Shown: piece after piece, positions 608-51,439 of the stretch | Numbering within the stretch: the first letter of the stretch is position 1 | Layout of the letters: the number at the start of each line of letters is the position of its first letter | From: Ariolimax columbianus | Lineage: Eukaryota > Mollusca > Gastropoda > Stylommatophora > Arionidae | Length of the DNA stretch: 64,000 nt | Direction of reading: 5' to 3' | NCBI GenBank assembly: GCA_036924085.1 | Contig: JAVGWX010000018.1 | Location: 22,983,964 to 23,047,963 of the forward strand | The notes under the pieces: model-generated | Seen by the model: only the letters and a program-made list of their open reading frames with translations | Database searches by the model: none | Told to the model about the DNA's origin: nothing | Made by a program: the position numbers and the translations under genes

Positions 608-860
608 TATTTCTTTTTCTTCTTCTGCTTCTTCTTCTTCTTTTTCTTCTTCTTCATCGTCTTCTTCTTCTTTTTCTTCTTCTTCATCGTCTTCTTCTTC
701 TTCTCCTGCGCGCGTTCTCAATCTCCCACTACCAAGCCCTGAACATGGCTTTGCAAGTTGCAGGATGTAGTTTGGAGAACATAATGCGTTGTGTCGCTAG
801 TTTACAGCTTGACTGCTATATTTGCACCTTTCAGTCCGACATCCGTCTTCGGCAGTTTAT
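608..860 (-). mobile_element. SINE-A partial copy with long GAA tail
   Basis: On the minus strand this is the 3' part of SINE-A. The unique part (711-860) matches the 35515, 43879 and 61108 copies from the CGGATGTGTTGGACCGAAAG-type segment through the GGGAGATTGAGAACG-type end. The (TTC)n run at 608-705 is its expanded (GAA)n 3' tail. The 5' half of the SINE is missing. It abuts a LINE fragment at 861. Confidence 0.7.
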
Positions 861-1443: not shown

Positions 1444-1454
1444 AGGCCTGTTTT

Positions 1455-1809
1455 GGCTTGACTTTATTCATTTTCAATCTGTTACTACCAAACCCTGAAA
1501 GGGCTTAAGTAGCAGAATGTACTCCAGAGAACGGAATGCATTGTGTCGTAGTTTACAGCTTGACTGCGATATTTGCACCTTTTGGTCTAACACATCCTGC
1601 TTCAGCAATCATTTTTTGAATACCAGGTTAGCATTCCCTCTTCGATCCCTTCTCCTTAGCCAGTCTGTCCTGCTGCAGCCTATTATCCAGGATCACCGCG
1701 TGGAGGTGTAGAAGGCTTTTGGAAGCTCTGGTTCGCTGGCCTTGACGCTAGCAGTCAGCTATGGGTCGCTGACCACTGCAGCTCATGCGCTGCTCAGCAT
1801 CTTCATCCC
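1455..1809 (-). mobile_element. SINE-A, near full length
   Basis: About 355 bp, matching the copies at 35515, 39685, 43879 and 61108 along its whole length, minus strand. It is flanked by a near-perfect duplication, AGGCCTGTTTT (1444-1454) and AGGTCTGTTTT (1810-1820), with one mismatch. This is what target-primed insertion leaves. SINE-A carries no protein; a LINE must supply its enzyme. Confidence 0.8.
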
Positions 1810-7565: not shown

Positions 7566-8144
7566 AGATAAACGAAGCTACAGAAATAGGAATTCCATAT
7601 GTTCAACCTATTTGAAGGGCACTCCATGAACCCAGTCTCCACTAGATTGTGTCCCTGTATGTTGACAGAAACGACAATTTTGAGTTCAAAAAGGGAGGGT
7701 ATGAGAAGAATGCCGTTTGTGGTGCAGTGGTGTTTGAGAGGTTTTGGAAGAGAATTGACACAGCAGACCCTTCCTAGATATAAGGTAACGGCTCTGACAG
7801 CTAAGTGTGCCGAACTTTGACACAATGCTACCTGTTAACGCTAACACAGTTCTGCTGAACGACAAAACGCTGGCGTAGCAACTTAACAATCCCCATTTAT
7901 CGCGCACGATTGGTTTCTTGTAGGGCCGCATGCGTGACGGATACAGATAGGACCAGTGCAACAATATGATCGTGTCGTGTCAGACGGATATTCGAACCTC
8001 TGTAAGATAGAAGACTCTCCAACTTATGTCATTGTAAATATTGCCATTCATAAAGACAACACATACACAATTGGCCTGGGAATTACTATACCATGTAGTT
8101 TGTCCTTTGCAGAACGTCACTCTCATGGCAATCGATGGGGAGGA
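7566..8144. other. Stretch without recognised features
   Basis: No gene or repeat recognised. Short open frames on both strands (for example 7599-7820) have no family resemblance. Confidence 0.4.
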
Positions 8145-10213
8145 AGACTAACGTCTGGTCAGGCAAAATATACTGATCAGACATGTTAGTCAGGGTCAGG
8201 CAAAATATACTGATCAGACATGTTAGTCAGGGTCAGGCAAAATATACTGATCAGACATGTTAGTCAGGGTCAGGCAAAATATACTGATCAGACATGTTAG
8301 TCAGGGTCAGGCAAAATATACTGATCAGACATGTTAGTCAGGGTCAGGCAAAATATACTGATCAGACATGTTAGTCAGGGTCAGGCAAAATATACTGATC
8401 AGACATGTTAGTCAGGGTCAGGCAAAATATACTGATCAGACATGTTAGTCAGGGTCAGGCAAAATATACTGATCAGACATGTTAGTCAGGGTCAGGCAAA
8501 ATATACTGATCAGACATGTTAGTCAGGGTCAGGCAAAATATACTGATCAGACATGTTAGTCAGGGTCAGGCAAAATATACTGATCAGACATGTTAGTCAG
8601 GGTCAGGCAAAATATACTGATCAGACATGTTAGTCAGGGTCAGGCAAAATATATTGATCAGACATGTTAGTCAGGGTCAGGCAAAATATACTGATCAGAC
8701 ATGTTAGTCAGGGTCAGGCAAAATATACTGATCAGAAATGTTAGTCAGGGTCAGGCAAAATATACTGATCAGACATGTTAGTCAGGGTCAGGCAAAATAT
8801 ACTGATCAGACATGTTAGTCAGGGTCAGGCAAAATATACTGATCAGACATGTTAGTCAGGGTCAGGCAAAATATACTGATCAGACATGTTAGTCAGGGTC
8901 AGGCAAAATATACTGATCAGACATGTTAGTCAGGGTCAGGCAAAATATACTGATCAGACATGTTAGTCAGGGTCAGGCAAAATATACTGATCAGACATGT
9001 TAGTCGGACCTCTACACCTCACGGTAGATGAGGAGCGACTAAGTAAGTAAGTAAGACATGTTAGTCAGGATCAAACAAAACATACTGATCAGACATGTTA
9101 GTCAGGTTCAGGCAAAACATACTGATCAGACATGTTAGTCAGGGTCAGGCAAAACATACTGATCAGACATGTTAGTCAGGGTCAGGCAAAACATACTGAT
9201 CAGACATGTTAGTCAGGGTCAGGCAAAATATATTGATCAGAAATGTTAGTCAGGGTCAGGCAAAATATATTGCTTAGACATGTTAGTCAAGGTCAGGCAA
9301 AATATACTGATCAGACATGTTAGTCACGGTCAAGCAATATATACTGATCAGACATGTTAGTCAGACCTCTACACCTCACGGTAGATGAGGAGCGACTAAG
9401 TAAGTAAGTAAGACATGTTAGTCAGGATCAAACAAAACATACTGATCAGACATGTTAGTCAGGGTCAGGCAAAACATACTGATCAGACATGTTAGTCAGG
9501 GTCAGGCAAAACATACTGATCAGACATGTTAGTCAGGGTCAGGCAAAATATATTGATCAGAAATGTTAGTCAGGGTCAGGCAAAATATATTGATCAGAAA
9601 TGTTAGTCAGGGTCAGGCAAAATATATTGATTAGACATGTTAGTCAAGGTCAGGCAAAATATACTGATCAGACATGTTAGTCACGGTCAAGCAATATATA
9701 CTGATCAGACATGTTAGTCAGACCTCTACACCTCACGGTAGATGAGGAGCGACTAAGTAAGTAAGTAAGACATGTTAGTCAGGATCAAACAAAATATACT
9801 GATCAGACATGTTAGTCAGGTTCAGGCAAAACATACTGATCAGACATGTTAGTCAGACCTCTACACCTCACGGTAGTTGAGGAGCGACTAAGTAAGTAAG
9901 TAAGACATGTTAGTCAGGTTCAGGCAAAACATACTGATCAGACATGTTAGTCAGGGTCAGGCAAAACATACTGATCAGACATGTTAGTCAGGGTCAGGCA
10001 AAACATACTGATCAGACATGTTAGTCAGGGTCAGGCAAAATATATTGATCAGAAATGTTAGTCAGGGTCAGGCAAAATATATTGATCAGAAATGTTAGTC
10101 AGGGTCAGGCAAAATATATTGATTAGACATGTTAGTCAAGGTCAGGCAAAATATACTGATCAGACATGTTAGTCACGGTCAAGCAATATATACTGATCAG
10201 ACATGTTAGTCAG

Positions 10214-13200
10214 ACCTCTACACCTCACGGTAGATGAGGAGCGACTAAGTAAGTAAGTAAGACATGTTAGTCAGGATCAAACAAAATATACTGATCAGAC
10301 ATGTTAGTCAGGTTCAGGCAAAACATACTGATCAGACATGTTAGTCAGGGTCAGGCAAAACATACTGATCAGACATGTTAGTCAGGGTCAGGCAAAACAT
10401 ATTGATCAGACATGTTAGTCAGGGTCAGGCAAAATATACTGATCAGACATGTTAGTCACGGTCAGGCAAAATATACTGATCAGACATGTTAGTCAGACCT
10501 CTACACCTCACGGTAGATGAGGAGCGACTAAGTAAGTAAGTAAGACATGTTAGTCAGGATCAAACAAAATATACTGATCAGACATGTTAGTCAGGTTCAG
10601 GCAAAACATACTGATCAGACATGTTAGTCAGGGTCAGGCAAAACATACTGATCAGACATGTTAGTCAGGGTCAGGCAAAATATATTGATCAGACATGTTA
10701 GTCAGGGTCAGGCAAAATATACTGATCAGACATGTTAGTCACGGTCAGGCAAAATATACTGATCAGACATGTTAGTCAGACCTCTACACCTCACGGTAGA
10801 TGAGGAGCGACTAAGTAAGTAAGTAAGACATGTTAGTCAGGATCAAACAAAATATACTGATCAGACATGTTAGTCAGGTTCAGGCAAAACATACTGATCA
10901 GACATGTTAGTCAGGGTCAGGCAAAACATACTGATCAGACATGTTAGTCAGGGTCAGGCAAAATATATTGATCAGACATGTTAGTCAGGGTCAGGCAAAA
11001 TATACTGATCAGACATGTTAGTCACGGTCAGGCAAAATATACTGATCAGACATGTTAGTCAGACCTCTACACCTCACGGTAGATGAGGAGCGACTAAGTA
11101 AGTAAGTAAGACATGTTAGTCAGGATCAAACAAAATATACTGATCAGACATGTTAGTCAGGTTCAGGCAAAACATACTGATCAGACATGTTAGTCAGGGT
11201 CAGGCAAAACATACTGATCAGACATGTTAGTCAGGGTCAGGCAAAATATATTGATCAGACATGTTAGTCAGGGTCAGGCATAATATACTGATCAGACATG
11301 TTAGTCACGGTCAAGCAATATATACTGATCAGACATGTTAGTCAGACCTCTACACCTCACGGTAGATGAGGAGCAACTAAGTAAGTAAGTAAGACATGTT
11401 AGTCAGGATCAAACAAAATATACTGATCAGACATGTTAGTCAGGTTCAGGCAAAACATACTGATCAGACATGTTAGTCAGGGTCAGGCAAAACATACTGA
11501 TCAGACATGTTAGTCAGGGTCAGGCAAAATATATTGATCAGACATGTTAGTCAGGGTCAGGCAAAATATACTGATCAGACATGTTAGTCACGGTCAGGCA
11601 AAATATACTGATCAGACATGTTAGTCAGACCTCTACACCTCACGGTAGATGAGGAGCGACTAAGTAAGTAAGTAAGACATGTTAGTCAGGATCAAACAAA
11701 ATATACTGATCAGACATGTTAGTCAGGTTCAGGCAAAACATACTGATCAGACATGTTAGTCAGGGTCAGGCAAAACATACTGATCAGACATGTTAGTCAG
11801 GGTCAGGCAAAATATATTGATCAGACATGTTAGTCAGGGTCAGGCAAAATATACTGATCAGACATGTTAGTCACGGTCAGGCAAAATATACTGATCAGAC
11901 ATGTTAGTCAGACCTCTACACCTCACGGTAGATGAGGAGCGACTAAGTAAGTAAGTAAGACATGTTAGTCAGGATCAAACAAAATATACTGATCAGACAT
12001 GTTAGTCAGGTTCAGGCAAAACATACTGATCAGACATGTTAGTCAGGGTCAGGCAAAACATACTGATCAGACATGTTAGTCAGGGTCAGGCAAAATATAT
12101 TGATCAGACATGTTAGTCAGGGTCAGGCAAAATATACTGATCAGACATGTTAGTCACGGTCAAGCAATATATACTGATCAGACATGTTAGTCAGACCTCT
12201 ACACCTCACGGTAGATGAGGAGCGACTAAGTAAGTAAGTAAGACATGTTAGTCAGGATCAAACAAAACATACTGATCAGACATGTTAGTCAGGTTCAGGC
12301 AAAACATACTGATCAGACATGTTAGTCAGGGTCAGGCAAAACATACTGATCAGACATGTTAGTCAGGGTCAGGCAAAACATACTGATCAGACATGTTAGT
12401 CAGGGTCAGGCAAAATATATTGATCAGAAATGTTAGTCAGGGTCAGGCAAAATATATTGATTAGACATGTTAGTCAAGGTCAGGCAAAATATACTGATCA
12501 GACATGTTAGTCACGGTCAAGCAATATATACTGATCAGACATGTTAGTCAGACCTCTACACCTCACGGTAGATGAGGAGCGACTAAGTAAGTAAGTAAGA
12601 CATGTTAGTCAGGATCAAACAAAACATACTGATCAGACATGTTAGTCAGGTTCAGGCAAAACATACTGATCAGACATGTTAGTCACGGTCAGGCAAAATA
12701 TACTGATCAGACATGTTAGTCACGGTCAGGCAAAATATATTGATTAGACATGTTAGTCAAGGTCAGGCAAAATATACTGATCAGACATGTTAGTCACGGT
12801 CAAGCAATATATACTGATCAGACATGTTAGTCAGACCTCTACACCTCACGGTAGATGAGGAGCGACTAAGTAAGTAAGTAAGACATGTTAGTCAGGATCA
12901 AACAAAATATACTGATCAGACATGTTAGTCAGGTTCAGGCAAAACATACTGATCAGACATGTTAGTCAGGGTCAGGCAAAACATACTGATCAGACATGTT
13001 AGTCAGGGTCAGGCAAAACATATTGATCAGACATGTTAGTCAGGGTCAGGCAAAATATACTGATCAGACATGTTAGTCACGGTCAGGCAAAATATACTGA
13101 TCAGACATGTTAGTCAGACCTCTACACCTCACGGTAGATGAGGAGCGACTAAGTAAGTAAGTAAGACATGTTAGTCAGGATCAAACAAAATATACTGATC

Positions 13201-16200
13201 AGACATGTTAGTCAGGTTCAGGCAAAACATACTGATCAGACATGTTAGTCAGGGTCAGGCAAAACATACTGATCAGACATGTTAGTCAGGGTCAGGCAAA
13301 ATATATTGATCAGACATGTTAGTCAGGGTCAGGCAAAATATACTGATCAGACATGTTAGTCACGGTCAGGCAAAATATACTGATCAGACATGTTAGTCAG
13401 ACCTCTACACCTCACGGTAGATGAGGAGCGACTAAGTAAGTAAGTAAGACATGTTAGTCAGGATCAAACAAAATATACTGATCAGACATGTTAGTCAGGT
13501 TCAGGCAAAACATACTGATCAGACATGTTAGTCAGGGTCAGGCAAAACATACTGATCAGACATGTTAGTCAGGGTCAGGCAAAATATATTGATCAGACAT
13601 GTTAGTCAGGGTCAGGCAAAATATACTGATCAGACATGTTAGTCACGGTCAGGCAAAATATACTGATCAGACATGTTAGTCAGACCTCTACACCTCACGG
13701 TAGATGAGGAGCGACTAAGTAAGTAAGTAAGACATGTTAGTCAGGATCAAACAAAATATACTGATCAGACATGTTAGTCAGGTTCAGGCAAAACATACTG
13801 ATCAGACATGTTAGTCAGGGTCAGGCAAAACATACTGATCAGACATGTTAGTCAGGGTCAGGCAAAATATATTGATCAGACATGTTAGTCAGGGTCAGGC
13901 AAAATATACTGATCAGACATGTTAGTCACGGTCAAGCAATATATACTGATCAGACATGTTAGTCAGACCTCTACACCTCACGGTAGATGAGGAGCGACTA
14001 AGTAAGTAAGTAAGACATGTTAGTCAGGATCAAACAAAATATACTGATCAGACATGTTAGTCAGGTTCAGGCAAAACATACTGATCAGACATGTTAGTCA
14101 GGGTCAGGCAAAACATACTGATCAGACATGTTAGTCAGGGTCAGGCAAAATATATTGATCAGACATGTTAGTCAGGGTCAGGCAAAATATACTGATCAGA
14201 CATGTTAGTCACGGTCAGGCAAAATATACTGATCAGACATGTTAGTCAGACCTCTACACCTCACGGTAGATGAGGAGCGACTAAGTAAGTAAGTAAGACA
14301 TGTTAGTCAGGATCAAACAAAATATACTGATCAGACATGTTAGTCAGGTTCAGGCAAAACATACTGATCAGACATGTTAGTCAGGGTCAGGCAAAACATA
14401 CTGATCAGACATGTTAGTCAGGGTCAGGCAAAATATATTGATCAGACATGTTAGTCAGGGTCAGGCAAAATATACTGATCAGACATGTTAGTCACGGTCA
14501 GGCAAAATATACTGATCAGACATGTTAGTCAGACCTCTACACCTCACGGTAGATGAGGAGCGACTAAGTAAGTAAGTAAGACATGTTAGTCAGGATCAAA
14601 CAAAATATACTGATCAGACATGTTAGTCAGGTTCAGGCAAAACATACTGATCAGACATGTTAGTCAGGGTCAGGCAAAACATACTGATCAGACATGTTAG
14701 TCAGGGTCAGGCAAAATATATTGATCAGACATGTTAGTCAGGGTCAGGCAAAATATACTGATCAGACATGTTAGTCACGGTCAAGCAATATATACTGATC
14801 AGACATGTTAGTCAGACCTCTACACCTCACGGTAGATGAGGAGCGACTAAGTAAGTAAGTAAGACATGTTAGTCAGGATCAAACAAAATATACTGATCAG
14901 ACATGTTAGTCAGGTTCAGGCAAAACATACTGATCAGACATGTTAGTCAGGGTCAGGCAAAACATACTGATCAGACATGTTAGTCAGGGTCAGGCAAAAC
15001 ATACTGATCAGACATGTTAGTCAGGGTCAGGCAAAATATATTGATCAGAAATGTTAGTCAGGGTCAGGCAAAATATATTGATTAGACATGTTAGTCAAGG
15101 TCAGGCAAAATATACTGATCAGACATGTTAGTCACGGTCAGGCAAAATATACTGATCAGACATGTTAGTCAGACCTCTACACCTCATGGTAGATGAGGAG
15201 CGACTAAGTAAGTAAGTAAGACATGTTAGTCAGGATCAAACAAAACATACTGATCAGACATGTTAGTCAGGATCAAACAAAACATACTGATCAGACATGT
15301 TAGTCAGGGTCAGGCAAAATATATTGATTAGACATGTTAGTCAAGGTCAGGCAAAATATACTGATCAGACATGTTAGTCACGGTCAAGCAATATATACTG
15401 ATCAGACATGTTAGTCAGACCTCTACACCTCACGGTAGATGAGGAGCGACTAAGTAAGTAAGTAAGACATGTTAGTCAGGATCAAACAAAACATACTGAT
15501 CAGACATGTTAGTCAGGTTCAGGCAAAACATACTGATCAGACATGTTAGTCAGGGTCAGGCAAAACATACTGATCAGACATGTTAGTCAGGGTCAGGCAA
15601 AACATACTGATCAGACATGTTAGTCACGGTCAAGCAATATATACTGATCAGACATGTTAGTCACGGTCAAGCAATATATACTGATCAGACATGTTAGTCA
15701 GACCTCTACACCTCACGGTAGATGAGGAGCGACTAAGTAAGTAAGTAAGACATGTTAGTCAGGATCAAACAAAACATACTGATCAGACATGTTAGTCAGG
15801 TTCAGGCAAAACATACTGATCAGACATGTTAGTCAGGGTCAGGCAAAACATACTGATCAGACATGTTAGTCAGGGTCAGGCAAAACATACTGATCAGACA
15901 TGTTAGTCAGGGTCAAGCAATATATACTGATCAGACATGTTAGTCAGACCTCTACACCTCACGGTAGATGAGGAGCGACTAAGTAAGTAAGTAAGACATG
16001 TTAGTCAGGATCAAACAAAACATACTGATCAGACATGTTAGTCAGGTTCAGGCAAAACATACTGATCAGACATGTTAGTCAGGGTCAGGCAAAACATACT
16101 GATCAGACATGTTAGTCAGGGTCAGGCAAAACATACTGATCAGACATGTTAGTCACGGTCAAGCAATATATACTGATCAGACATGTTAGTCACGGTCAAG

Positions 16201-19200
16201 CAATATATACTGATCAGACATGTTAGTCAGACCTCTACACCTCACGGTAGATGAGGAGCGACTAAGTAAGTAAGTAAGACATGTNNNNNNNNNNNNNNNN
16301 NNNNNNNNNNNNNNNNNNNNNNNNNNNNNNNNNNNNNNNNNNNNNNNNNNNNNNNNNNNNNNNNNNNNNNNNNNNNNNNNNNNNAACATACTGATCAGAC
16401 ATGTTAGTCAGGGTCAGGCAAAATATATTGATCAGACATGTTAGTCAGGGTCAGGCAAAATATACTGATCAGACATGTTAGTCACGGTCAGGCAAAATAT
16501 ACTGATCAGACATGTTAGTCAGACCTCTACACCTCACGGTAGATGAGGAGCGACTAAGTAAGTAAGTAAGACATGTTAGTCAGGATCAAACAAAATATAC
16601 TGATCAGACATGTTAGTCAGGTTCAGGCAAAACATACTGATCAGACATGTTAGTCAGGGTCAGGCAAAACATACTGATCAGACATGTTAGTCAGGGTCAG
16701 GCAAAATATATTGATCAGACATGTTAGTCAGGGTCAGGCAAAATATACTGATCAGACATGTTAGTCACGGTCAGGCAAAATATACTGATCAGACATGTTA
16801 GTCAGACCTCTACACCTCACGGTAGATGAGGAGCGACTAAGTAAGTAAGTAAGACATGTTAGTCAGGATCAAACAAAATATACTGATCAGACATGTTAGT
16901 CAGGTTCAGGCAAAACATACTGATCAGACATGTTAGTCAGGGTCAGGCAAAACATACTGATCAGACATGTTAGTCAGGGTCAGGCAAAATATATTGATCA
17001 GACATGTTAGTCAGGGTCAGGCAAAATATACTGATCAGACATGTTAGTCACGGTCAAGCAATATATACTGATCAGACATGTTAGTCAGACCTCTACACCT
17101 CACGGTAGATGAGGAGCGACTAAGTAAGTAAGTAAGACATGTTAGTCAGGATCAAACAAAATATACTGATCAGACATGTTAGTCAGGTTCAGGCAAAACA
17201 TACTGATCAGACATGTTAGTCAGGGTCAGGCAAAACATACTGATCAGACATGTTAGTCAGGGTCAGGCAAAACATACTGATCAGACATGTTAGTCAGGGT
17301 CAGGCAAAACATATTGATCAGACATGTTAGTCAGGGTCAGGCAAAATATACTGATCAGACATGTTAGTCACGGTCAGGCAAAATATACTGATCAGACATG
17401 TTAGTCAGACCTCTACACCTCACGGTAGATGAGGAGCGACTAAGTAAGTAAGTAAGACATGTTAGTCAGGATCAAACAAAATATACTGATCAGACATGTT
17501 AGTCAGGTTCAGGCAAAACATACTGATCAGACATGTTAGTCAGGGTCAGGCAAAACATACTGATCAGACATGTTAGTCAGGGTCAGGCAAAATATATTGA
17601 TCAGACATGTTAGTCAGGGTCAGGCAAAATATACTGATCAGACATGTTAGTCACGGTCAGGCAAAATATACTGATCAGACATGTTAGTCAGACCTCTACA
17701 CCTCACGGTAGATGAGGAGCGACTAAGTAAGTAAGTAAGACATGTTAGTCAGGATCAAACAAAATATACTGATCAGACATGTTAGTCAGGTTCAGGCAAA
17801 ACATACTGATCAGACATGTTAGTCAGGGTCAGGCAAAACATACTGATCAGACATGTTAGTCAGGGTCAGGCAAAATATATTGATCAGACATGTTAGTCAG
17901 GGTCAGGCAAAATATACTGATCAGACATGTTAGTCACGGTCAGGCAAAATATACTGATCAGACATGTTAGTCAGACCTCTACACCTCACGGTAGATGAGG
18001 AGCGACTAAGTAAGTAAGTAAGACATGTTAGTCAGGATCAAACAAAATATACTGATCAGACATGTTAGTCAGGTTCAGGCAAAACATACTGATCAGACAT
18101 GTTAGTCAGGGTCAGGCAAAACATACTGATCAGACATGTTAGTCAGGGTCAGGCAAAATATATTGATCAGACATGTTAGTCAGGGTCAGGCAAAATATAC
18201 TGATCAGACATGTTAGTCACGGTCAAGCAATATATACTGATCAGACATGTTAGTCAGACCTCTACACCTCACGGTAGATGAGGAGCGACTAAGTAAGTAA
18301 GTAAGACATGTTAGTCAGGATCAAACAAAATATACTGATCAGACATGTTAGTCAGGTTCAGGCAAAACATACTGATCAGACATGTTAGTCAGGGTCAGGC
18401 AAAACATACTGATCAGACATGTTAGTCAGGGTCAGGCAAAATATATTGATCAGACATGTTAGTCAGGGTCAGGCAAAATATACTGATCAGACATGTTAGT
18501 CACGGTCAGGCAAAATATACTGATCAGACATGTTAGTCAGACCTCTACACCTCACGGTAGATGAGGAGCGACTAAGTAAGTAAGTAAGACATGTTAGTCA
18601 GGATCAAACAAAATATACTGATCAGACATGTTAGTCAGGTTCAGGCAAAACATACTGATCAGACATGTTAGTCAGGGTCAGGCAAAACATACTGATCAGA
18701 CATGTTAGTCAGGGTCAGGCAAAATATATTGATCAGACATGTTAGTCAGGGTCAGGCAAAATATACTGATCAGACATGTTAGTCACGGTCAGGCAAAATA
18801 TACTGATCAGACATGTTAGTCAGACCTCTACACCTCACGGTAGATGAGGAGCGACTAAGTAAGTAAGTAAGACATGTTAGTCAGGATCAAACAAAATATA
18901 CTGATCAGACATGTTAGTCAGGTTCAGGCAAAACATACTGATCAGACATGTTAGTCAGGGTCAGGCAAAACATACTGATCAGACATGTTAGTCAGGGTCA
19001 GGCAAAATATATTGATCAGACATGTTAGTCAGGGTCAGGCAAAATATACTGATCAGACATGTTAGTCACGGTCAAGCAATATATACTGATCAGACATGTT
19101 AGTCAGACCTCTACACCTCACGGTAGATGAGGAGCGACTAAGTAAGTAAGTAAGACATGTTAGTCAGGATCAAACAAAATATACTGATCAGACATGTTAG

Positions 19201-19464
19201 TCAGGTTCAGGCAAAACATACTGATCAGACATGTTAGTCAGGGTCAGGCAAAACATACTGATCAGACATGTTAGTCAGGGTCAGGCAAAACATACTGATC
19301 AGACATGTTAGTCAGGGTCAGGCAAAATATATTGATCAGAAATGTTAGTCAGGGTCAGGCAAAATATATTGATTAGACATGTTAGTCAAGGTCAGGCAAA
19401 ATATACTGATCAGACATGTTAGTCACGGTCAGGCAAAATATACTGATCAGACATGTTAGTCAGA
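10214..19464 (+). repeat. Second-level repeat blocks of about 2.34 kb in the satellite
   Basis: The spacer series 10214-12552 and 12835-15173 have the same interval order, seven of 283 then one of 357, total 2338 bp each. The series 17089-19464 has 320, six of 283, then 357, total 2375, exactly one monomer longer. A CAAGCAATATATA variant before the spacer recurs at equivalent places in the three blocks. Confidence 0.8.
16285..16384. other. Assembly gap of exactly 100 N
   Basis: A run of 100 N within the satellite. The spacer interval across it, 16231 to 16523, is 292 bp and does not fit 37n+61. The N run is therefore probably a placeholder and the true gap size is unknown. Confidence 0.95.
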
Positions 19465-22056
19465 CCTCTACACCTCATGGTAGATGAGGAGCGACTAAGT
19501 AAGTAAGTAAGACATGTTAGTCAGGATCAAACAAAACATACTGATCAGACATGTTAGTCAGGATCAAACAAAACATACTGATCAGACATGTTAGTCAGGG
19601 TCAGGCAAAATATATTGATTAGACATGTTAGTCAAGGTCAGGCAAAATATACTGATCAGACATGTTAGTCACGGTCAAGCAATATATACTGATCAGACAT
19701 GTTAGTCAGACCTCTACACCTCACGGTAGATGAGGAGCGACTAAGTAAGTAAGTAAGACATGTTAGTCAGGATCAAACAAAACATACTGATCAGACATGT
19801 TAGTCAGGTTCAGGCAAAACATACTGATCAGACATGTTAGTCAGGGTCAGGCAAAACATACTGATCAGACATGTTAGTCAGGGTCAGGCAAAACATACTG
19901 ATCAGACATGTTAGTCACGGTCAAGCAATATATACTGATCAGACATGTTAGTCACGGTCAAGCAATATATACTGATCAGACATGTTAGTCAGACCTCTAC
20001 ACCTCACGGTAGATGAGGAGCGACTAAGTAAGTAAGTAAGACATGTTAGTCAGGATCAAACAAAACATACTGATCAGACATGTTAGTCAGGTTCAGGCAA
20101 AACATACTGATCAGACATGTTAGTCAGGGTCAGGCAAAACATACTGATCAGACATGTTAGTCAGGGTCAGGCAAAACATACTGATCAGACATGTTAGTCA
20201 GGGTCAGGCAAAATATATTGATCAGAAATGTTAGTCAGGGTCAGGCAAAATATATTGATTAGACATGTTAGTCAAGGTCAGGCAAAATATACTGATCAGA
20301 CATGTTAGTCACGGTCAAGCAATATATACTGATCAGACATGTTAGTCAGACCTCTACACCTCACGGTAGATGAGGAGCGACTAAGTAAGTAAGTAAGACA
20401 TGTTAGTCAGGATCAAACAAAACATACTGATCAGACATGTTAGTCAGGTTCAGGCAAAACATACTGATCAGACATGTTAGTCACGGTCAGGCAAAATATA
20501 CTGATCAGACATGTTAGTCACGGTCAGGCAAAATATACTGATCAGACATGTTAGTCAGACCTCTACACCTCACGGTAGATGAGGAGCGACTAAGTAAGTA
20601 AGTAAGACATGTTAGTCAGGATCAAACAAAACATACTGATCAGACATGTTAGTCAGGATCAAACAAAACATACTGATCAGACATGTTAGTCAGGGTCAGG
20701 CAAAATATATTGATTAGACATGTTAGTCAAGGTCAGGCAAAATATACTGATCAGACATGTTAGTCAGGGTCAGGCAAAATATACTGATCAGACATGTTAG
20801 TCAGGGTCAGGCAAAATATACTGATCAGACATGTTAGTCAGACCTCTACACCTCACGGTAGATGAGGAGCGACTAAGTAAGTAAGTAAGACATGTTAGTC
20901 AGGATCAAACAAAACATACTGATCAGACATGTTAGTCAGGATCAAACAAAACATACTGATCAGACATATTAGTCAGGGTCAGGCAAAATATATTGATTAG
21001 ACATGTTAGTCAAGGTCAGGCAAAATATACTGATCAGACATGTTAGTCACGGTCAAGCAATATATACTGATCAGACATGTTAGTCAGACCTCTACACCTC
21101 ACGGTAGATGAGGAGCGACTAAGTAAGTAAGTAAGACATGTTAGTCAGGATCAAACAAAACATACTGATCAGACATGTTAGTCAGGTTCAGGCAAAACAT
21201 ACTGATCAGACATGTTAGTCAGGGTCAGGCAAAACATACTGATCAGACATGTTAGTCAGGGTCAGGCAAAACATACTGATCAGACATGTTAGTCACGGTC
21301 AAGCAATATATACTGATCAGACATGTTAGTCACGGTCAAGCAATATATACTGATCAGACATGTTAGTCAGACCTCTACACCTCACGGTAGATGAGGAGCG
21401 ACTAAGTAAGTAAGTAAGACATGTTAGTCAGGATCAAACAAAACATACTGATCAGACATGTTAGTCAGGTTCAGGCAAAACATACTGATCAGACATGTTA
21501 GTCAGTGTCAGGCAAAACATACTGATCAGACATGTTAGTCAGGGTCAGGCAAAACATACTGATCAGACATGTTAGTCAGGGTCAGGCAAAATATATTGAT
21601 CAGAAATGTTAGTCAGGGTCAGGCAAAATATATTGATTAGACATGTTAGTCAAGGTCAGGCAAAATATACTGATCAGACATGTTAGTCACGGTCAAGCAA
21701 TATATACTGATCAGACATGTTAGTCAGACCTCTACACCTCACGGTAGATGAGGAGCGACTAAGTAAGTAAGTAAGACATGTTAGTCAGGATCAAACAAAA
21801 CATACTGATCAGACATGTTAGTCAGGTTCAGGCAAAACATACTGATCAGACATGTTAGTCAGGGTCAGGCAAAACATACTGATCAGACATGTTAGTCAGG
21901 GTCAGGCAAAACATACTGATCAGACATGTTAGTCAGGGTCAGGCAAAATATATTGATCAGACATGTTAGTCAGGGTCAGGCAAAATATATTGATTAGACA
22001 TGTTAGTCAAGGTCAGGCAAAATATACTGATCAGACATGTTAGTCACGGTCAGACA

Positions 22057-22347
22057 AAAATACTCGCCAAGACCCTCACCTCGGCTTCCTAGTAGCCCTC
22101 TCTGGAAACGGACTGTGTGTCATGGCAGTCTGGCTAACGAGGTGCTGGATCGACGTGATCCCCGTAGTAGTGAGTGACACGCAGACTAAGCCAAGCATAG
22201 CACAACCGCCTAGAGGATTCCGGTCTAACTTCATCAGCATGCTCGGGATGTGAGGAAAGCTACTGCGACCCGCCACTTAACGTCCTTTTCAGGGCGCACA
22301 TAAGAGTAGCCTTCTCGTTTTGGGCATTCGCAAACAACAACAACAAC
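22057..22347 (+). mobile_element. Family B element body joined to the satellite
   Basis: A non-coding body of about 285 bp that follows the last satellite monomer without a break and ends in an (AAC)n tail (about 22327-22347). It matches 41640-41913 and 51440-51725 over the full length. The middle carries a core shared with SINE-A (GGAAACGGACTG, then GGCAGTCTGGCTAACGAGG). A 66-codon minus-strand frame here is chance. Confidence 0.8.
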
Positions 22348-22504
22348 ATACCAATCGATCTGTAGAGCTTTCAATCTTTGGTCAACTCTCTCGCCTCTGT
22401 CACCGTTTTCGTCAGAACCTCTTTAATGTTCATCTTTTCCCGGGTCTGTCTCTGCCTCGCTTCCCATGTACAATACCCACGTTGCAACGATATATCGGAT
22501 TTTT

Positions 22505-28008: not shown

Positions 28009-31000
28009 AAGATGGTCAAGATGGCGCCGGACATGGTCGCAGTCGATTTCCCTCTTGATAAAACGGTGTTTTGTTTGTGTTTTCTATGATAACTCTCGGA
28101 CTATTAACGTGATTCCTGGATCTAAATGTGCCGACTTGTGAATTAAACATACTTATGTGAAAGAAGTGATGCAACGAAGTATATAACAGTGTAGTTTTAG
28201 TCGTGAAAGGTAGACTAATGTGTACAGTTTCGATGGAACAAAGCGTGGCCGAAACTTGACCCGGTCAAAAGCTAGTGTCGCTCCGTGTTGTATCGTGACC
28301 AGGATAACGAAGCATGAAAACTGAAACGAAGGAGGTCATCCTGACCCCGTCAAACATACGGTATTTCAGAAAAGAGCTCATCGCGCTTCGATCAGCACAC
28401 TACGTCCCTTCAAACTCAGATCTACATCTGTTGCGTGTGCTGAAAATACACTTAACCGAGGAGGCATCGGAACTCACAAGTACACAATCAAGGCGGAAGA
28501 CCAGAGGAACGAGAGGTGGAAGAAGAATACACAAACAAATGCACTCAGAAACAGATACCTCAAAGCTCCACCCCAGCGATAAAAGAGAAGGGAAGGGCTA
28601 CCGAGAAAATGAGGCACACGCTGACACCATACTGTCTGCATCCGAACCCTTCACTAGAAGTCTTGACAATGTCTTGCCTCTAGAACATGTTGAGTCCGGA
28701 CGAGAGAGCGAGGAAGATCCTGCGCACATCTCCCTCACTATAAACACATTGCGCAACTCACGACATCACCCTACAGATCACACCCTGACTAGCAGCTCGC
28801 AACTGGCAGGGCCCCCAAACTGCAGCGACGGAACAGGCAGAAAACGATCACGAAAACTACCCATCACGCTTGCAACATGGAATGTCCGTACGCTACTGGA
28901 CAACACCAAAGCAAACAGACCCGAACGACGGACAGCTCTGAACGCCAGGGAACTGGCTAGATACAACATCTGCATAGCTGCCCTGAGCGAGACACGACTG
29001 GCAGAGGAAAGGCAGATCACAGAAGAAGGCGCTGGTTATACTTTCTTCTGGAGCGGCCGCAGCAAAGAAGAACGCCGTGAAGTTGGAGTTGGCTTTGCCA
29101 TCAAGACCAACATGGTCGATAAGCTCACAAGCATGCCCAGAGGAATTAATGACCGCCTGATTACACTGCGTCTCCCCCTAATAGGAGGGCGCCATGCAAC
29201 CCCCATCAGTGCATACGCACTCACAATGACAAATCCTCAGGAAACAAAATATAAGTTTTATGAGGACCTTGAGACGCTCATCGCTGCAGTCCCCAAATCT
29301 GACAAACTGGTCATCCTCGGTGATTTTAACGCTAGGGTTGGCACAGACCATACAGCCTGGGAGGGGGCCATTGGCAGACATGGTATCGGAAAATGCAATA
29401 GTAACGGACTGCTCCTTCTGAGGACATATGCCGCAAATGAACTACTCATTACAAACACAGCTTTCCGACTACCTGTCCGAAATAGAGCCACATGGATGCA
29501 CCCAAGGTCCCGCCACTGGCACCTCATTGACTACATTATCATCAGACGTAGGGATCGAGCGGATGCTATTGTAACGAAGAGCATGTGTGGTGCAGAATGT
29601 TGGACCAACCATCGACTTGTCATTGCCAAGCTAAACTTCAAGATCCAGCCCAAAATGCGCCCCCAGGGAAAGAAACCACCGAGGAGGCTAAATGTCTCTC
29701 AGCTAAAATACGAACCCACGAGAGGAGGCTTCCAGGAAGAGCTTGAGGGTAGACTGTCTGAGCTTCGTTTTGAAAAGAACGACATCGAAGAGAACTGGGC
29801 ATCATTGAGAAACACACTCTATGATACAGCTGTTAAACACATTGGCCCACTCACGCGCAAGCATAAGGACTGGTTTGATGAGAACGATCTGGAAATACAG
29901 GGCCTTCTCGATGCAAAACATGAAGCGCACAGTGAATACCAGAGGGACACACCATCTCCGGCAGCAAAAGCTGCCTTCAATACTGCTCGCAAAGCTGTCC
30001 AGACCAGGGTTAGAGAGATGCAAGACTCCTGGCTCAGCAAAAGAGCTGACGAAATTGAGATGTTCGCCGAGCGTCATGACACCAAACGGTTTTACGAGGC
30101 ACTGAAAGCTCTCTACGGCCCGCAGCCCTCTAGTAATACTCCAGTTCGCAGTGCGGATGGGGTACTACTAACAGATAAGGTTCAGATTCTTTACAGATGG
30201 GCAGATCACTTCTGCAAAATACTAAACCACCTATCGTCCATAAATGAAGAGGCCATCCGGCGAATGCCGCAGGTGGAACTGAACCTGGCGTTGGATGAAG
30301 TCAATACTGAGGAGGAAGTCGACAGGGCAATCAGTTCAATATCTATAGGAAAAGCTCCAGGAGCTGATGCAATACCAGCAGAGGTATATAAGACAGCTGA
30401 CCCATCCCTCACCAGAAGGATCACTGAACTCTTCTGTCACATGTGGGCTGAAGGTAAAATTCCGCAGGAACTAAAGGACCCCTCAATCGTTCACCTGTAC
30501 AAAAGAAAAAGCAGCCGTCAGGAATGCGACAATCATCGTGGAATATCGCTACTCTCCATAGCAAGCAAGATTCTAGCGCGCTTACTGCTAAACAGGCTCA
30601 ACAAACACCTTGAACAAAGACACCACCTCCCAGAAAGCCAATGTGGATTCGGAGCCGGAAGAGGAACAGTGGACATGATTTTTTCCGCTCGCCAAGTACA
30701 AGAGAAGTGTCGAGAACAAAATCAGGCCTTGTACACCACATTTATTGATTTGACAAAGGCATTTGATACAGTAAACAGAGGAGGGCTGTGGATGATAATG
30801 TCTAAGTTTGGCTGCCCCAACAAGTTCATAACAATGGTGAAACAGCTACACGAAGGCATGTGTGCTCGTGTACTGGACAGCGGTGCAATCTCTAAAACGT
30901 TTCTAGTATCAAACGGAGTAAAACAAGGATGTGTACTCGCCCCGACTTTGTTCAGCATTATGTTCGCGGTCACGATGACAGACACCTTAAGATCATTGGA

Positions 31001-31304
31001 GCTTGGAATACCCATAAAGTACCGCACAGATGGCAAGTTACTCAATTCCAGAAGAATGAAGGCCAAAACCAAATTGGCTGGTGACATAATCAGGGAACTT
31101 GTATTTGCTGACGACTGCGCTCTAATGAGCAGCTCAGAACTAAACATGCAGGCTGGAATGGACCAGTTCTCTGCCGCATGCAAAAATTTTGGCCTGACCA
31201 TAAATGCCAAAATAACAGAGGTCATGTACCAACCAGCACCAGGCATGCCGTACACAAAACCAGAGACTACAGTCAGCGGGCAGACGTTGAATGCCGTAGA
31301 CAAA

Positions 31305-34010
31305 AACTATAAGCCCTATTGGAATGATGAGTTGCAGAAAGCGGAAGATGCAGTAACACATGCTAGGAACATGGCAGAGCGAGAGCAATCTATGGAGGCA
31401 AACATCGCCCTCAAAGCCCCCACGGCGAAATACAAATACACTCTCAAGCAAACAGCAAGAGAGAGCTGGAAAAACAAAACGGAAAGCCTAAACCTGGACA
31501 AAGAAGGGAACAAGCTATGGAAGCTAGTCAGAGCCATGAATGACAAAACCCCGTCAAACAAACAAATTACCATCAAGCAAAGCGAAAACTTGTTCAATGG
31601 TAAAAAAGCTACAAACGCTTTTGTCGATCACTATGTCAGAGCAAACCACATCGAGGTCCCTGCAGATAGGCATACAGACATTAGTGAAGGGCAAAAGGGG
31701 CACGACAACATCAGTACGGCACCTGAAGAGCATATGATAGCAAGATTAACAATGAGCGAAATGGAAGAGGCCATGAGAACGTTAAAGAAAAGGAAATCTC
31801 CCGGAAAAGATGGGATAACAAACGAAATGCTGATGGGGCTGGGCCAAACAGCGAAGAGGAAGCTGCTATCGGTCCTGAAGCAAAGCTGGAAAAGGGGAAT
31901 TGTACCCCAGGCATGGAAAGACACAGTACTAAAAAAGGAAAGGACAAAACAGATCCAAATGGATACAGGTCTATCAGCCTACTGAGCTGTGTCGGCAAAC
32001 TGATGGAACGTATGATAAACACCAGACTGATGTAGCATCTGGAAGAAAAACGAATACTAATTCCACAGCAAGCCGGCTTTAGACAGCACAGATCCACTGA
32101 GGACCAGGTCATCCTCATAGCCCAGGAAATAGAAGATGCCTACCAGGCGCAGAAACACACAGTAGCGGTTTGGGTGGACCTGGAAAAGGCATTTTACAAA
32201 GTCTGGAAAGATGGACTTAGAGTCAAGCTAAGAAGAAGTGATGTCTGTGGGAAAATGTACAAGTGGATCAACCACTACCTCAAAAATAGAACGGCCAGAG
32301 TACAAGGGCAGATGAGCAGAAAGGTGAAACTCGAGCAGGGAGTACCCCAAGGGGGAGTACTGTCACCCACACTCTTCCTGGTGTATATAAACGACATTAC
32401 AGAGAATATACCAAGAAGAGTCCATAGCTCAATGTTTGCAGACGATCTGGCTATGTGGACCTCTGAAAAGAATCTCACAATAGCAAGAAATCGGATGCAG
32501 CAGACCCTAACATCGCTGGAAGAGTGGGCGAACTCATGGCTGGTCAAAATAAACGAGGAGAAAACCACATGCACAATATTCTCGCTTTCAATCAAACCCC
32601 AAAATACCAAGTTAAGTTTAAATGGCAAATTCCTGCAGCCAAACGACAACCCAAACTATCTGGGAGTCACATTTGATCGGCGTATGACATGGAAAAGTCA
32701 GATCGAGAGAAACCGAATGAGAGCCAGAGAAAGAATGGCAATCATGAGGAAACTTGCTGGCACAAGCTGGGGAGAAGACGAAAGCATACTAAAGAAACAG
32801 TACACTGGAAGAGTGAGACCAGTTCTCGAGTATGGCATTGCGGCATGGACAACAGCAGCAAAGGCTAACTTCGATAAAGTTAGCAAACTTCAAAATCAAG
32901 CCATGAGAATTATAACAGGAGGCATGAAGTCAACGCCAATTGTAGAACTTGAAAAGATTACAAAACTGTAATACATGACCGATAGAAGAGACTGCAGAGC
33001 CCAGTTGCAGTCAGAGAAACTCCGAAGACTGACCGACCATCCAATGCACCATAGACTAAACAATTTGGGAAATGGGAAACTAAAGCGGAGAAACTTTGCA
33101 GAAATAGCCAAAGCAAAGATGCACGAAGATCCCATAAACGCACTAACAACACCAAAACCCATCACTACTGTACGAAAACCTACCTGGAGGCAAGATATAT
33201 TTCCAGTGGTGGTAGCAAATATACCAGGTATTGGAAACAAAAACTGCCAGACTGAACAAGAAAGGTACTGGACCCATGCATACACCGACGGTTCTGTAAC
33301 AAACACTACACAGAACGGAGGGGCAGGAGCATTCCTGAACCTACCAAATGGCAGAAAAATAACACTGTCATTCGCTACTGGTAAGTACACAAGCAATTTC
33401 AGAGCGGAGGCAGAGGCACTGAGGGCGGCAGTGGAAGAAATGGTGACACATAAAGAAAATGAAAGCCATATAGTCCTGCTTACAGATGCTCTCGCCGTAG
33501 TCACAGCGCTAAAAAGCCAGAAAAACACTGAGCTTAATGACCTAAGAGCAGCACTCTGCAAACTGTGCCAGCAGTCCGCACCAAAAAGGGTAGTGGTACA
33601 GTGGGTGCCATCACACTGCAACATCCAAGGCAACGAGGAGGCAGACAGACTGGCAAAAGAAGGTGCAAGACTACCACAAACAGATACCAGTATGACGTAC
33701 GAAGAGTCAAAACGGCTTATCAAAGCCAGATACATGACCAAATGGGAAACCGAACATACTGGCTACACCAAAAACGATGCATATTACCAGTTGAACAGAA
33801 AAGAGCAGGTCGTTGTCTTCAGACTTCGCACTGGCCACAATAGACTGAGGTACCATCTATTCAACAAACTGAAGATAGGTGGAACTGCAAGACAAGCTCT
33901 ATGGCAGTGTCGACAGCCTCAGGATGACCGCCGCTTTTTTCGAAAAAATAATGGTTACTGTCTGACTGCGTACGAAGAAGAAGAAGAAGAAGAAGAAGAA
34001 GAAGAAGAAG
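31305..34010 (+). pseudogene. RNase H LINE copy 2, inserted in the host LINE
   Basis: 5'-truncated insertion of 2706 bp starting in the pre-RT region (YKPYWNDELQKAEDAV). The RT follows (KKRKSPGKDGITNEML near 31785, VDLEKAFYKVW near 32175, VPQGGVLSP near 32345, FADDLAMW at 32434), then RNase H with all four acidic positions (YTDGS near 33281, EAEALRAA near 33405, LLTDAL near 33475, GNEEADRLA near 33635) and intact PSHC. Damage: a frameshift deletion near 31930, TAG at 32033-32035, TAA at 32969-32971 (CAA in copy 1), KAFY for KAFD, and a deletion after KIGGT that removes the C-terminal zinc knuckle. It ends in a GAA tail. By chance the first 227 codons continue the host frame. Confidence 0.92.
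33974..34010 (+). repeat. GAA tail of RNase H LINE copy 2
   Basis: (GAA)n of about 12 units ending at the target duplication. It is the 3' terminal microsatellite of the inserted LINE. Confidence 0.9.
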
Positions 34011-34844
34011 AATGCCGTAGACAAATTCACATATCTGTGCAGCACGCTGTCGAGATCTGTCAGCCTAGACGATGAGGTGGCAAGCAGAATAGCAAAGGCC
34101 AGCACAGCCCTTGGTAGAATGCGCTCGATGGTCTGGGCACGTCGTGGCATCAGCGTCAAGACCAAATTCAAAGTCTACCGTGCAACCATCATTCCAACCC
34201 TACTATACGCTTGCGAAAGCTGGACTGTATACTCTGGACATGCAAGGAGGTTAAACCACTTCCACACAGGTTGCCTGAGGCGAATATTCCACATCCGATG
34301 GCAAGATCGTGTCACTGACATCGAGGTTCTCTCGAGGACTAACATGCCCAGCATCCATGCACTGCTAGAAAAAGCACGACTAGGGTGGGCCGGACACCTC
34401 GTCTGTATGTCAGACGAGCGGCTCCCAAAGAAGCTTCTCTACGGCGAGCTGAGAGAGGGATGGCGCGAGAGAGGGCGCCCAAAGAAACGTTTTAAAGACG
34501 GTCTGAAGGACTCACTAAAAAGTTGCCACATAGACATCGACAACTGGGAATATCTTGCGCAAAACAGATCTGACTGGAGAAGCGCAGTCAAATCGGGTGT
34601 AGCTGCCGGTGAAGACGACCATGTTTTGAAAGCCCAGAGCAGACGCGAGAACCGGAAATCCCGAACAGAGAGAACACAATCCCCTTCTACAAACCTCGTG
34701 TGCCCGATATGAAGCAGATGTTTTCGTGCCCGCATTGGCCTGTTCAGCCACATGCGCACCCACGCCCAACAGGGCAATCTGTGACAAGGATGATGTCGGC
34801 GGTCCTCATCGACAACGATGGACAGCTATTATTATTATTATTAT

Positions 34845-35514: not shown

Positions 35515-35885
35515 TTAAATGGCTTGGCTTGGCTTCGTTCGTTCTCAATCTCCTACTACCAAATCCTGAAAGGGCTTAAGCAGCAGAATGTAGTCCAGAG
35601 AATGGAATGCGTTGTGTCGTAGTTTACAGCTTGACTGCGATATTTGCACCTTTCGGTCCTACACATCCGACTTCATCAAGCATTTTTTTTAGTACCGGGT
35701 TAGCATTCCCTCTTCGATCCCTTATTCTTAGCCAGTCTGCTCTGTTGCAGCCTGTTATCCAGGATCACCGCGTAGAGGTGTAGAAGGGTCTTGACAGCTC
35801 TGGTTCGCTGGCCCTGACGCTAGCAGTCAGCTATGGGTCGGTGACCACTGCAGCGCATGCGCTGCTCAGCATCTTGATCCCTGAC
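35515..35885 (-). mobile_element. SINE-A, near full length
   Basis: Full-length match on the minus strand, ending at GGCTTGGCTTCGTTCG (plus-strand text). The flanks GACGATTAAAT and GACCACTAAAT may be a decayed target duplication. Confidence 0.8.
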
Positions 35886-39684: not shown

Positions 39685-40035
39685 ATTCAGGTAGACGAGC
39701 GCATGAGCTGCAGAGGTCAGCGACCCATAGCTGACTGCTAGAGTCAGGGCCATCGAACCAGAGCTGCCAAGATCCTTCTGAACCTCCACGCGGTGATCCT
39801 GGATAACATTCTGCAGCAGGGCAGACTGGCTAAGGAGAAGGGATCGAAGAGGAAATGCTAACCCGGTACTCAAAAAATGCTTGTTGAAGTCGGATGTGTT
39901 GGACTGAAAGGTGCAAATATCGCAGTCAAGATGTAAACCACGACAAACGCATTCCGTTCTCTGAATTACATTTTGTTACTTAAGCCCTTTTCACGGTTTG
40001 GTAGCTGGAGATTGAAAACGAATGAAGCCAAGCCA
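39685..40035 (+). mobile_element. SINE-A, near full length
   Basis: Plus-strand copy from GCATGAGCTGCAG through AACGAATGAAGCCAAGCC. It has small substitutions only. Confidence 0.8.
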
Positions 40036-40149
40036 ACCCAAGCCATATTTAGATAGACAAATTTATTGGTGGCTGAGTTGTTCACGAGGATGCTCGACAC
40101 AGTGGCTCTGTTACTATTCGCGGGCAGAAGGAGTTAAATGTAGACCAAT

Positions 40150-40878: not shown

Positions 40879-41196
40879 ACAGACTGCCATAACATACTTT
40901 TTTACAAGCTTTATTTAACTTGACATGACCGTTGTCCTCGCGTGGATTTCTGTTTCTCCTATGTCAAACAACACTCCCATAACCTTGAAAGCAAATAATT
41001 GTACACAGACTCTACTCGTGTGACCTGTTAATCTGTCAAATCTTGAGTACAAAAACAAAACACAAATTCACCAAAGAAAAGCTACAGCACCAATTATACA
41101 CTCATGTAGTCTCAAAAACAAAACAAAAACATGTCTTAGTTTAAATAAAAGCTTGTACCGAGACAATATGTTATTAAAATGTTTACAGAGGAGGTA
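40879..41196. other. Stretch without recognised features
   Basis: No gene or element recognised. Confidence 0.4.
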
Positions 41197-41640
41197 GACT
41201 AACGTCTGGTCAGACAAATCATACTGATCAGACATGTTAGTCAAGGTCAGGTAAAACATACTGATCAGACAGACATGTTAGTCATGGTCAGGCAGAACAT
41301 AATAATCAAACCTGTTAGTCAGGGTTAATAACAATATATTTTTCAGATATATTAGTCAGGGTCAGTCAAAACATACTGATCAGACATGTTAGTCAGGGTC
41401 AGACAAACCATACTTATCAGACATGTTAGTCAAGGTCAGGTAAAACATACTGATCAGACAGACTTGTTAGTTAGTGTCATGCAAAACATACTAATCAGAC
41501 ATGTTAGTTGGGGCAGGCACAACATACTGATCAGACATGTTAGTTAGGGTCAGGCACAACATACTGATCAGATATGTTAATTAGGGTCAGGCAAAACATA
41601 CTGAACAGACATGTTAGTCAGGGTCAGGCAATATACATTG
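41197..41640 (+). repeat. Diverged 37-bp satellite, about 12 monomers
   Basis: Opens with AGACTAACGTCTGGTCA exactly as at 8145. Monomers are related to the main array but diverged, with small indels and no 61-bp spacer. It passes directly into family B. Confidence 0.9.
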
Positions 41641-41913
41641 GTCAAGATCCACAGCTCGACTTACCTGTAGCCCTCCTTGAAAACGGGCTGTCCTTGTCAG
41701 CCTGGCTAACGAGATGGGGGAATCGACGTAGTAGTGAACGTCACACAGATTAAGCCAAGCACGGCATAACCGCCCGGAGGACCCCCGTTGACTTTCCTCA
41801 GCATACATGTAACGAAAGCTACTACAACGCTACTTAACGTCCTTTTCATGATGCACAAAAGAGTGAACCTACTCATTGTTGGCGTTCACAATAACAACAA
41901 CAACAACAACAAA
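41641..41913 (+). mobile_element. Family B element body
   Basis: Full body from the GGTCAAGATCC-type start to the (AAC)n tail at about 41890-41913. Together with the array before it (41197) it forms a compact composite unit of about 717 bp. Confidence 0.85.
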
Positions 41914-43878: not shown

Positions 43879-44238
43879 CTTCTTCTTCTTCTGCGTTCGT
43901 TCTCAATCTCCCGCTACCAAACCCTGAAAGGGCTTAAGTAGCAGAATGTAGTCCAGAGAACGGAATGCGTTGTGTCGTAGTTTACAGCTTGACTGCGATA
44001 TTTGCACCTTTCGGTCCAACACATCCGACTTCAGCAAGCATTTTTTGAGTACCGGGTTAGCATTCCCTCTTCGATCCCTTCTCTTTAGCCAGTCTGCCCT
44101 GCTGCAGCTTGTTTTCCAGAATCACCACGTGGAGGTGTAGAAGGGTCTTGGCAGCTCTGGTTCGCTGGCCCTGACGCTAGCAGCCATCTATGGGTCGCTG
44201 ACCACTGCAACTCATACGCTGCTCAGCGTCTTGATCCC
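43879..44238 (-). mobile_element. SINE-A, full length with 13-bp TSD
   Basis: The best-defined SINE-A copy: 360 bp with its GAA tail (TTC on this strand) at 43879-43891. It is flanked by perfect CAGCGTCTGATAT at 43866-43878 and 44239-44251. This fixes both ends of the element and its orientation. Confidence 0.9.
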
Positions 44239-45579: not shown

Positions 45580-45735
45580 ACTGCTGAAGTCGGATGTGTC
45601 GGACCGAAACGTGCAAATATCTCAGTAAAGCTGTAAACTATGACACAAAGCATTCCTTTCTCCGGACTACATTCTGCTACTTGCAAAGCTCTTTTCTGGG
45701 CTTGGTAGCGAGAGATTGAGAACGAACGAACGACT
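45580..45735 (+). mobile_element. SINE-A 3' fragment
   Basis: The last 150 bp of SINE-A, from GCTGAAGTCGGATGTGTCGG to GAGATTGAGAACGAACGAAC. 5'-truncated. Confidence 0.75.
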
Positions 45736-51430: not shown

Positions 51431-51439
51431 AATGAAGAA

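Follow-up and report, generated by a model that had tools for sequence, protein, structure and literature searches.

The higher-order period of a tandem array in the DNA analysed here very probably arose when the 3' end of a LINE was inserted into one 37-bp VNTR monomer and was then multiplied, seeding units of n x 37 + 61 bp. The DNA is a 64-kb stretch, called the window throughout (JAVGWX010000018.1, 22983964-23047963), of a 2.29-Gb genome in 401 contigs. Three direct observations carry the argument, namely the identity of the inserted piece, the target-site duplications at independent copies of it, and a monomer-insert junction that is found at one locus only.

Layout of the array in the window

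The 37-bp tandem array, counting both its plain and its spacer-bearing parts, spans 8157 to 22064 of the window. According to the tandem-repeat and monomer maps it begins with plain, insert-free VNTR monomers, that is, empty sites (8157..9007, + strand). The core scan and the genome matches place the first 46-bp LINE 3'-end insert, consisting of a 36-bp core and a TAAG tail, at 9008..9053 (+), and from the sequence we read the right copy of AGACATGTTAGTCAG, the target-site duplication, directly after it at 9054..9068 (+). Between 9008 and 21773 (+), the core scan and the monomer map give 45 inserts, arranged in higher-order units that measure n x 37 + 61 bp and are most often 283 bp long. This copy number is as assembled and is uncertain near a 100-N assembly gap found by the window scan within the array (16285..16384). 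Each of the 45 cores has 0-1 mismatches, where 100 shuffles lead one to expect 0 copies. The 46 bp are identical in 41 of the 45 spacers and carry one substitution in the other four; GATGAGG is present in 44 and GTTGAGG in one, while the tails are alike in all 45. AGACATGTTAGTCAG closes the left context of 44/45 spacers, the first (9008) reading ...GTCGG instead, and reopens the right context of 44/45, the remaining one running into Ns.

The 44 spacings between neighbouring spacers are 283 bp (28 times), 357 bp (eight times), 246 bp (four times), and 135, 209, 320 and 292 bp (once each). All except the last equal 37n+61, and the 292-bp spacing spans the N gap, so that the unit number at that point is uncertain. 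An earlier note on this DNA had described each spacer as 46 non-satellite bp with a TAAG tail plus a second copy of the 15-bp word, had derived the 37n+61 rule, and had proposed amplification at least 45 times. This description is borne out by the counts above, and a single junction type serves all 45 copies.

Identity of the 46-bp insert

The 46-bp insert derives from a dispersed LINE that encodes a reverse transcriptase; its 36-bp core corresponds to the 3' end of that element and comprises the last codons, with the stop in the (TAAG)n tail. A search of the genome with the 36-bp core gave 4,130 + 4,217 = 8,347 matches (<=3 mismatches, window copies included), and the reversed control gave 0/0. 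The earlier note had named such a search for a LINE or SINE 3' end outside the array as its main check, and had considered that the segment might be confined to this satellite; thousands of the matches lie outside the array, and they lead to a LINE. Upstream, the core runs into LINE sequence in 21 of 37 loci examined and does not in the other 16, these 37 being what was left of the first 100 core places listed after subtraction of the window loci and of 13 repeats of one array (L011). The core extended by eight upstream LINE bases has 3,724 genome matches (<=3 mismatches), from which perhaps half of the core matches are without the LINE continuation, an approximate figure because of the mismatch limits.

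The LINE copies that we compared are mostly 83-98% alike, apart from three matches to a second stretch of L050 at 67-69%. Of five copies that were translated, four close with TSTPHGRRGATK and have their stop next, within the TAAG tail; the fifth, L058, has an earlier stop and carries the A-to-T change seen in most window spacers. A piece of one LINE copy matched the reverse transcriptase domain PF00078 (RVT_1), and the best protein match of a longer piece (52%) is labelled LINE-1 ORF2 from Anabrus simplex. Nearly all core copies listed have the TAAG tail, exceptions such as L054 and L086 having a changed one, and the one-mismatch genomic core matches listed read GAAGAGG, as opposed to GATGAGG in the window. 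Scans of the window for RNA families and tRNAs returned nothing, and an 18-mer search in viral contigs gave 0 matches. The spacer has the 10-mer TCTACACCTC in common with a SINE-like family at 39800 and elsewhere, and a relic of that family was considered as its source and dropped once the LINE 3' end was found. As a separate observation, the window also holds nested or chimeric LINE ORFs at 28308-34712, where an endonuclease-RT ORF precedes a second RT and an RNase H ORF.

Other arrays of the same LINE end

Indeed, at other loci the insert together with its own target-site duplication became a tandem unit. A pattern of two cores 6-36 bp apart has 513 + 595 genome matches (control 0/0), a count that leaves out the window array because its spacers are too far apart. 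By hand count, the first 100 tandem places listed make up 26 arrays, located from C1 to C4:25.47 Mb, about 516 Mb. The junction word is the array's own in 23 of the 26, and the other three have GGTAGAAG in common, a LINE-end variant that is also present in L025. We read 21 of the 26 (20 fetched, plus L040) and L011 from another contig, 22 arrays altogether, the largest of which is L011 with up to 25 copies. Most follow the order word-insert-word-insert-word and carry that word, identical or almost so, in both flanks, and the repeat is found in both outer flanks of 18/20 arrays scored. L083, which is partial, and L085, with its right flank unfetched, are below the cut; L082 and L090 follow LINE sequence on the left and were left unscored. 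Further exceptions are L081, with one full and one broken copy, and the diverged L086. L073, L074, L075 and L087 have a left word unlike the inner ones and a right flank that agrees or nearly agrees with them, and in L080 and L084 the inner word equals the left one.

The word-insert-word-insert-word layout would also be expected if the LINE had hit the same target word again and again, instead of one insertion duplicating. Such repeated insertion is reported for Drosophila elements in PMC12628747 and PMC9659126, and it would fit the tails that differ between the two copies of L077 and are mixed among those of L011. Independent insertions should differ from one another, however, whereas copies within one array have private tail variants in common: TAAAG in all copies of L074 and CGACTAAG in both copies of L089. 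These shared private tails favour duplication of one insertion, as does the single tail length of most of the 22 arrays read. In the window, moreover, 45 alike tails and GATGAGG in 44/45 stand against GAAGAGG in the listed one-mismatch matches elsewhere, and we consider repeated insertion very improbable.

Two kinds of array differ from the common layout. At L025, L090, L075, C3:131477794 and C4:11160008 the 3' end is itself repeated with GGTAGAAG at the junctions, L025 like L090 following LINE sequence, and these copies may belong to a variant whose tail is doubled and which spreads in that form. L026 is a higher-order array that alternates inserts with two junction words, TTCCTACAGCTGT and ATTAAGGAACAT, as if two neighbouring insertions had preceded amplification.

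Target-site duplications and a single insertion

Short copies elsewhere that begin at the same base sit between short target-site duplications. The flank test covered 18 solitary short copies as well as 21 arrays, 39 loci in all, from which L082 was dropped because of the LINE on its left; L025 and L090 (LINE-left arrays), L026 (left edge beyond the stretch), L104-L106 (other starts) and L111-L113 were outside it. With a repeat score that tolerates a single mismatch and as many as 6 additional bases at the 5' junction, a flanking repeat (score >=8) was found in 33/38 flank pairs, comprising 15/18 solitary copies and the 18/20 arrays already mentioned, while only 1 of 1,406 mismatched left-right flank pairs used as a control reached the cut. 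The five pairs below it are L010, L067, L083, L085 and L099, the right flank of L085 being outside the fetched stretch. The duplications are 9 to 20 bp long and 30/33 measure 11-16 bp, the one of 20 bp sitting in an AAT run.

The duplication in the window, of 15 bp, or 13 if the AG common to the tail is counted as tail, is within the range found elsewhere. The earlier note took the 15-bp word for a target-site duplication because it stands on both sides of the insert. Although the word does stand on both sides, with the two exceptions given above, this is no proof alone, because in a period-37 array any insertion or replacement would mimic such a repeat (-15 = +22 mod 37); it is the duplications at other loci that make the repeat in the window convincing as a target-site duplication. 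The note had also counted the absence of such a repeat at other loci as grounds for abandoning the idea, and the 33/38 flank pairs point the other way.

A conceivable mimic would be a repair event that swapped 22 bp of the monomer for a 46-bp patch of LINE-derived RNA or DNA, without target-primed insertion, so that the 15-bp repeat would reflect periodicity only. We reasoned that its +22 phase jump would be indistinguishable from a -15 duplication in an array of period 37. Copies of the fragment that share this 5' end and tail nevertheless lie between short duplications at other sites, and the 15 bp are within their range, which makes replacement very unlikely.

For the insertion of the LINE end into one monomer, the junction is informative. 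At <=3 mismatches, the junction between insert and this position of the monomer has 45 matches here and three elsewhere (L111, L112 and L113, 3 mismatches each), and these three hold no 37-bp monomer when read. The junction is thus found at this locus only, from which it follows that one insertion gave all 45 copies, in agreement with the proposal that one monomer received the insert and was then amplified. At L113 the same LINE end was inserted once, with AGGTCTTAGTCAG on both sides (a 13-bp flanking repeat) and plain monomers around it. The host there is a different tandem array, with a monomer containing GGTCTTAGTCAGTATGTTTCATCTGTACC, and L113 is the unamplified counterpart, or an early stage, of the array in the window. 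L111 has ACTTGTTGATCAG on both sides of the insert, while the flanks of L112 match more poorly (ACATCACAGTCAG versus ACATCCCAGCCAG).

Preferred 5' start of the short copies

To avoid selection for the 5' end, we drew a sample with a 28-mer from the 3' half of the core, a pattern that requires the tail and has 3,986 exact genome matches. The 38 loci that the listing gives as far as C1:30.05 Mb, tabulated by hand with L094 and L108 called LINE by eye, comprise 24 longer LINE ends, 11 starts at ACCTC +-2, and three starts at other points within about 50 bp: that of L104 is about 36 bp upstream, and those of L105 and L106 fall inside the core. L069 and L099, both among the 11, have extra junction bases, and the duplication of L099 is weak. 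The start at ACCTC is therefore preferred, not exclusive. A hairpin predicted 1 nt into the 5' end of the insert is not unusually stable (z -0.99), and with this value we make no claim for it as the reason for the preferred start.

Tentatively, and with rather less than even confidence, one may regard the terminal ~36 nt of the LINE with its TAAG tail as a minimal mobile unit, a short RNA mobilised with a preferred 5' end, which starts minisatellites genome-wide and imposes a higher-order period when it enters an existing VNTR. It would act as a starter because its two target-site duplications are only ~45 bp apart.

The host element of the VNTR

The array that received the insert appears to belong to a larger element. 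An 8-bp flanking repeat, CAATCGAT, which is a candidate target-site duplication, stands at 8129..8136 and again at 22352..22359, and occurs once more in the window at 54868. Within these repeats, a 5' leader (GGGGAGGAAGACTAACGTCT..., 8137..8156, +) precedes the VNTR, and a 3' domain with an (AAC)n tail (22065..22348, +) follows it, the latter aligning to 41614-41908 and to 51435-51721 (73%). By alignment and tandem map, a second host copy (copy B, 41190..41908, +) has a VNTR of ~11 units and no insert; its array (41208-41631) shares with the first copy (copy A) both the left leader and the 3' domain with its (AAC)n end, and the two leaders are 90% alike over 42 bp (copy B, 41190-41231). Leader, monomers and 3' domain recur at four further sites (L001, L004, L006 and L007) with one to about a dozen monomers; these were fetched by a 15-mer of the monomer, the other four of the eight fetched loci overlapping them. 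The leader of L006 is itself repeated. The (AAC)n tail is seen in copies A and B and, among the four further sites, in L004 only, and the host-type flanking repeat is seen for copy A only. Partial copies of the 3' domain lie at 27577-27427 and within 47882-46959.

Genome-wide, the host 3' domain has 8,145 + 8,329 matches (<=3 mismatches; about 16,500; control 0/0) and the monomer 15-mer 43,313 + 44,127 exact matches (87,440; control 5/7), the first 100 places listed for the 15-mer sitting in short dispersed arrays. The thousands of matches, together with copy B and the further sites with the same leader and 3' domain, mean that the array is not a free satellite, as it had been called; instead, it is a 13.9-kb expanded VNTR inside what looks, from the sequence, like a dispersed VNTR-bearing retroposon-like element. 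As for the monomer array with an empty site that the note had suggested looking for, monomers free of the insert are plentiful, to judge from these exact 15-mers, the plain monomers at 8157-9007 and copy B. That the spacer is a relic of the host's own ends, leader fused to 3' domain, rather than foreign DNA would account for a weak likeness by eye of GATGAGGAGCGACTAAG to the leader sequence GAGGAGGAAGACTAACG, but is extremely improbable for a core present at thousands of places and as a LINE 3' end.

Other parts of the window show variations on the host element. At 51193-51733 the 3' domain stands behind a different 39-bp tandem repeat, so the VNTR of that copy was exchanged or newly formed. 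A diverged 37-bp array at 48440-49477 (monomer with GACCAGGACGTCGCGTCAGGGTCAGACACAATATACT) has a similar leader, and the 3' domain was not found beside it. At 46959-47891 (-) a copy of the 3' domain is split by a LINE-like ORF fragment, read by eye as RNase H, and the two pieces overlap by ~9 bp, as after insertion. There is also a dispersed SINE-like family of at least 8 copies, at 39800-40045, 43896-44118 (-), 35520-35761 (-), 61230-61466, 1445-1689 (-), 46640-46867, 45582-45730 and 713-850 (-). By eye, its 5' part has CCAAGACCC...CAGACTGGCTAA...GGGATCGA in common with the 3' domain of the VNTR element, which suggests that the two may have a common core and different tails.

Growth of the array

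Lastly, we considered how the array grew. The monomer map shows chiefly six-monomer units, ECADBH and ECADBF being the commonest, while eight-monomer units lie near both ends of the array, with a few more in its interior, and the left side has 22 plain monomers that are nearly identical. The longest exact repeat is a segment of 2,981 bp (12935..15915, +) that recurs at 17226-20206, a lag of 4,291. It is possibly a recent large duplication, or an assembly effect, since the N gap sits between its two copies. The unit map and the large exact repeat form a pattern of hierarchical growth such as unequal exchange in register would leave. The first 27 bp of the monomer type that carries the insert have 47 exact matches in the array, four of which do not follow an insert (15256, 19547, 20642 and 20925); these may represent the empty form or later rearrangements.

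Discussion

We propose the following course of events. A LINE with a (TAAG)n tail would have placed a 46-nt 3'-terminal piece of its RNA in a single 37-bp monomer, which belonged to the VNTR of a different retroposon-like element. Target-primed reverse transcription was presumably the mechanism, and 13-15 bp of that monomer were duplicated in the process. Exchange or slippage between in-register repeats would then have multiplied the altered monomer together with the plain monomers next to it, and so produced units that measure n x 37 + 61 bp and, at a later stage, duplications of several kilobases. Elsewhere, the same insertion leaves duplications only ~45 bp apart, and new minisatellites whose unit is the insert plus one duplication have repeatedly formed.

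Traces of how a tandem repeat began are usually lost. The present genome holds the same short insertion as solitary copies, alone in another array (L113), as dimers and as arrays, and in one case within an older VNTR, to which it gave a new higher-order period. With so many states of one insertion side by side, the rate at which short direct repeats start arrays, and the effects of their spacing and length, become measurable, as does the way in which one insertion can give a satellite a new period. Our literature search, conducted without most subscription journals, turned up no published case in which a single short LINE end had seeded many arrays and its target-site duplication formed part of the unit, and we make no claim of priority.

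As for the host, SVA (SINE-VNTR-Alu) is known as a retroposon of leader, VNTR and 3' domain, and the host element, with its thousands of dispersed copies, shows a comparable layout. No SVA-like element in molluscs was among the papers that the literature search listed. Satellite-like central repeats are carried by SVA and also, according to PMC7492417, by HINE/Helentron elements, which the host is like in this respect; copy A, however, has an (AAC)n end and an 8-bp flanking repeat, whereas HINEs are reported there to be without target-site duplication.

Transposable elements are recognised as seeds of tandem repeats, and minisatellites are known to be able to start from short direct repeats in the flanks of a motif (PMC9659126, PMC6947457, PMC3389668 and PMC12628747). 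In the Haber-Louis model, as outlined in PMC6947457 and PMC3389668, short direct repeats flank a unique motif and slippage or unequal exchange provides the start, the resulting unit being the motif and one direct repeat. The arrays described here have the same kind of unit and fit this model of how minisatellites are born, if target-site duplications are taken as the direct repeats that provide the start. The difference is that the direct repeats are the target-site duplications of one retroposed fragment, and the process was thus restarted at unrelated sites. Among 7,276 human tandem repeats derived from transposable elements, 300 are flanked by direct repeats of 5-20 bp (Ahmed and Liang, 2012; PMC3389668, main text). 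Those are likewise tandem repeats of transposable-element sequence, but that main text has 0 uses of 'target site' or 'TSD', whereas in the present genome the duplication itself serves as the repeat, and a single fragment has seeded many arrays. Similar in layout is the double insertion of a transposable element that McGurk and Barbash (2018) put forward as a substrate of satellite DNA, as summarised in PMC12628747. Their Drosophila case also has tandem copies of an element separated by target-site duplications; the private tails common to the copies of an array in the present genome point instead to duplication after a single insertion.
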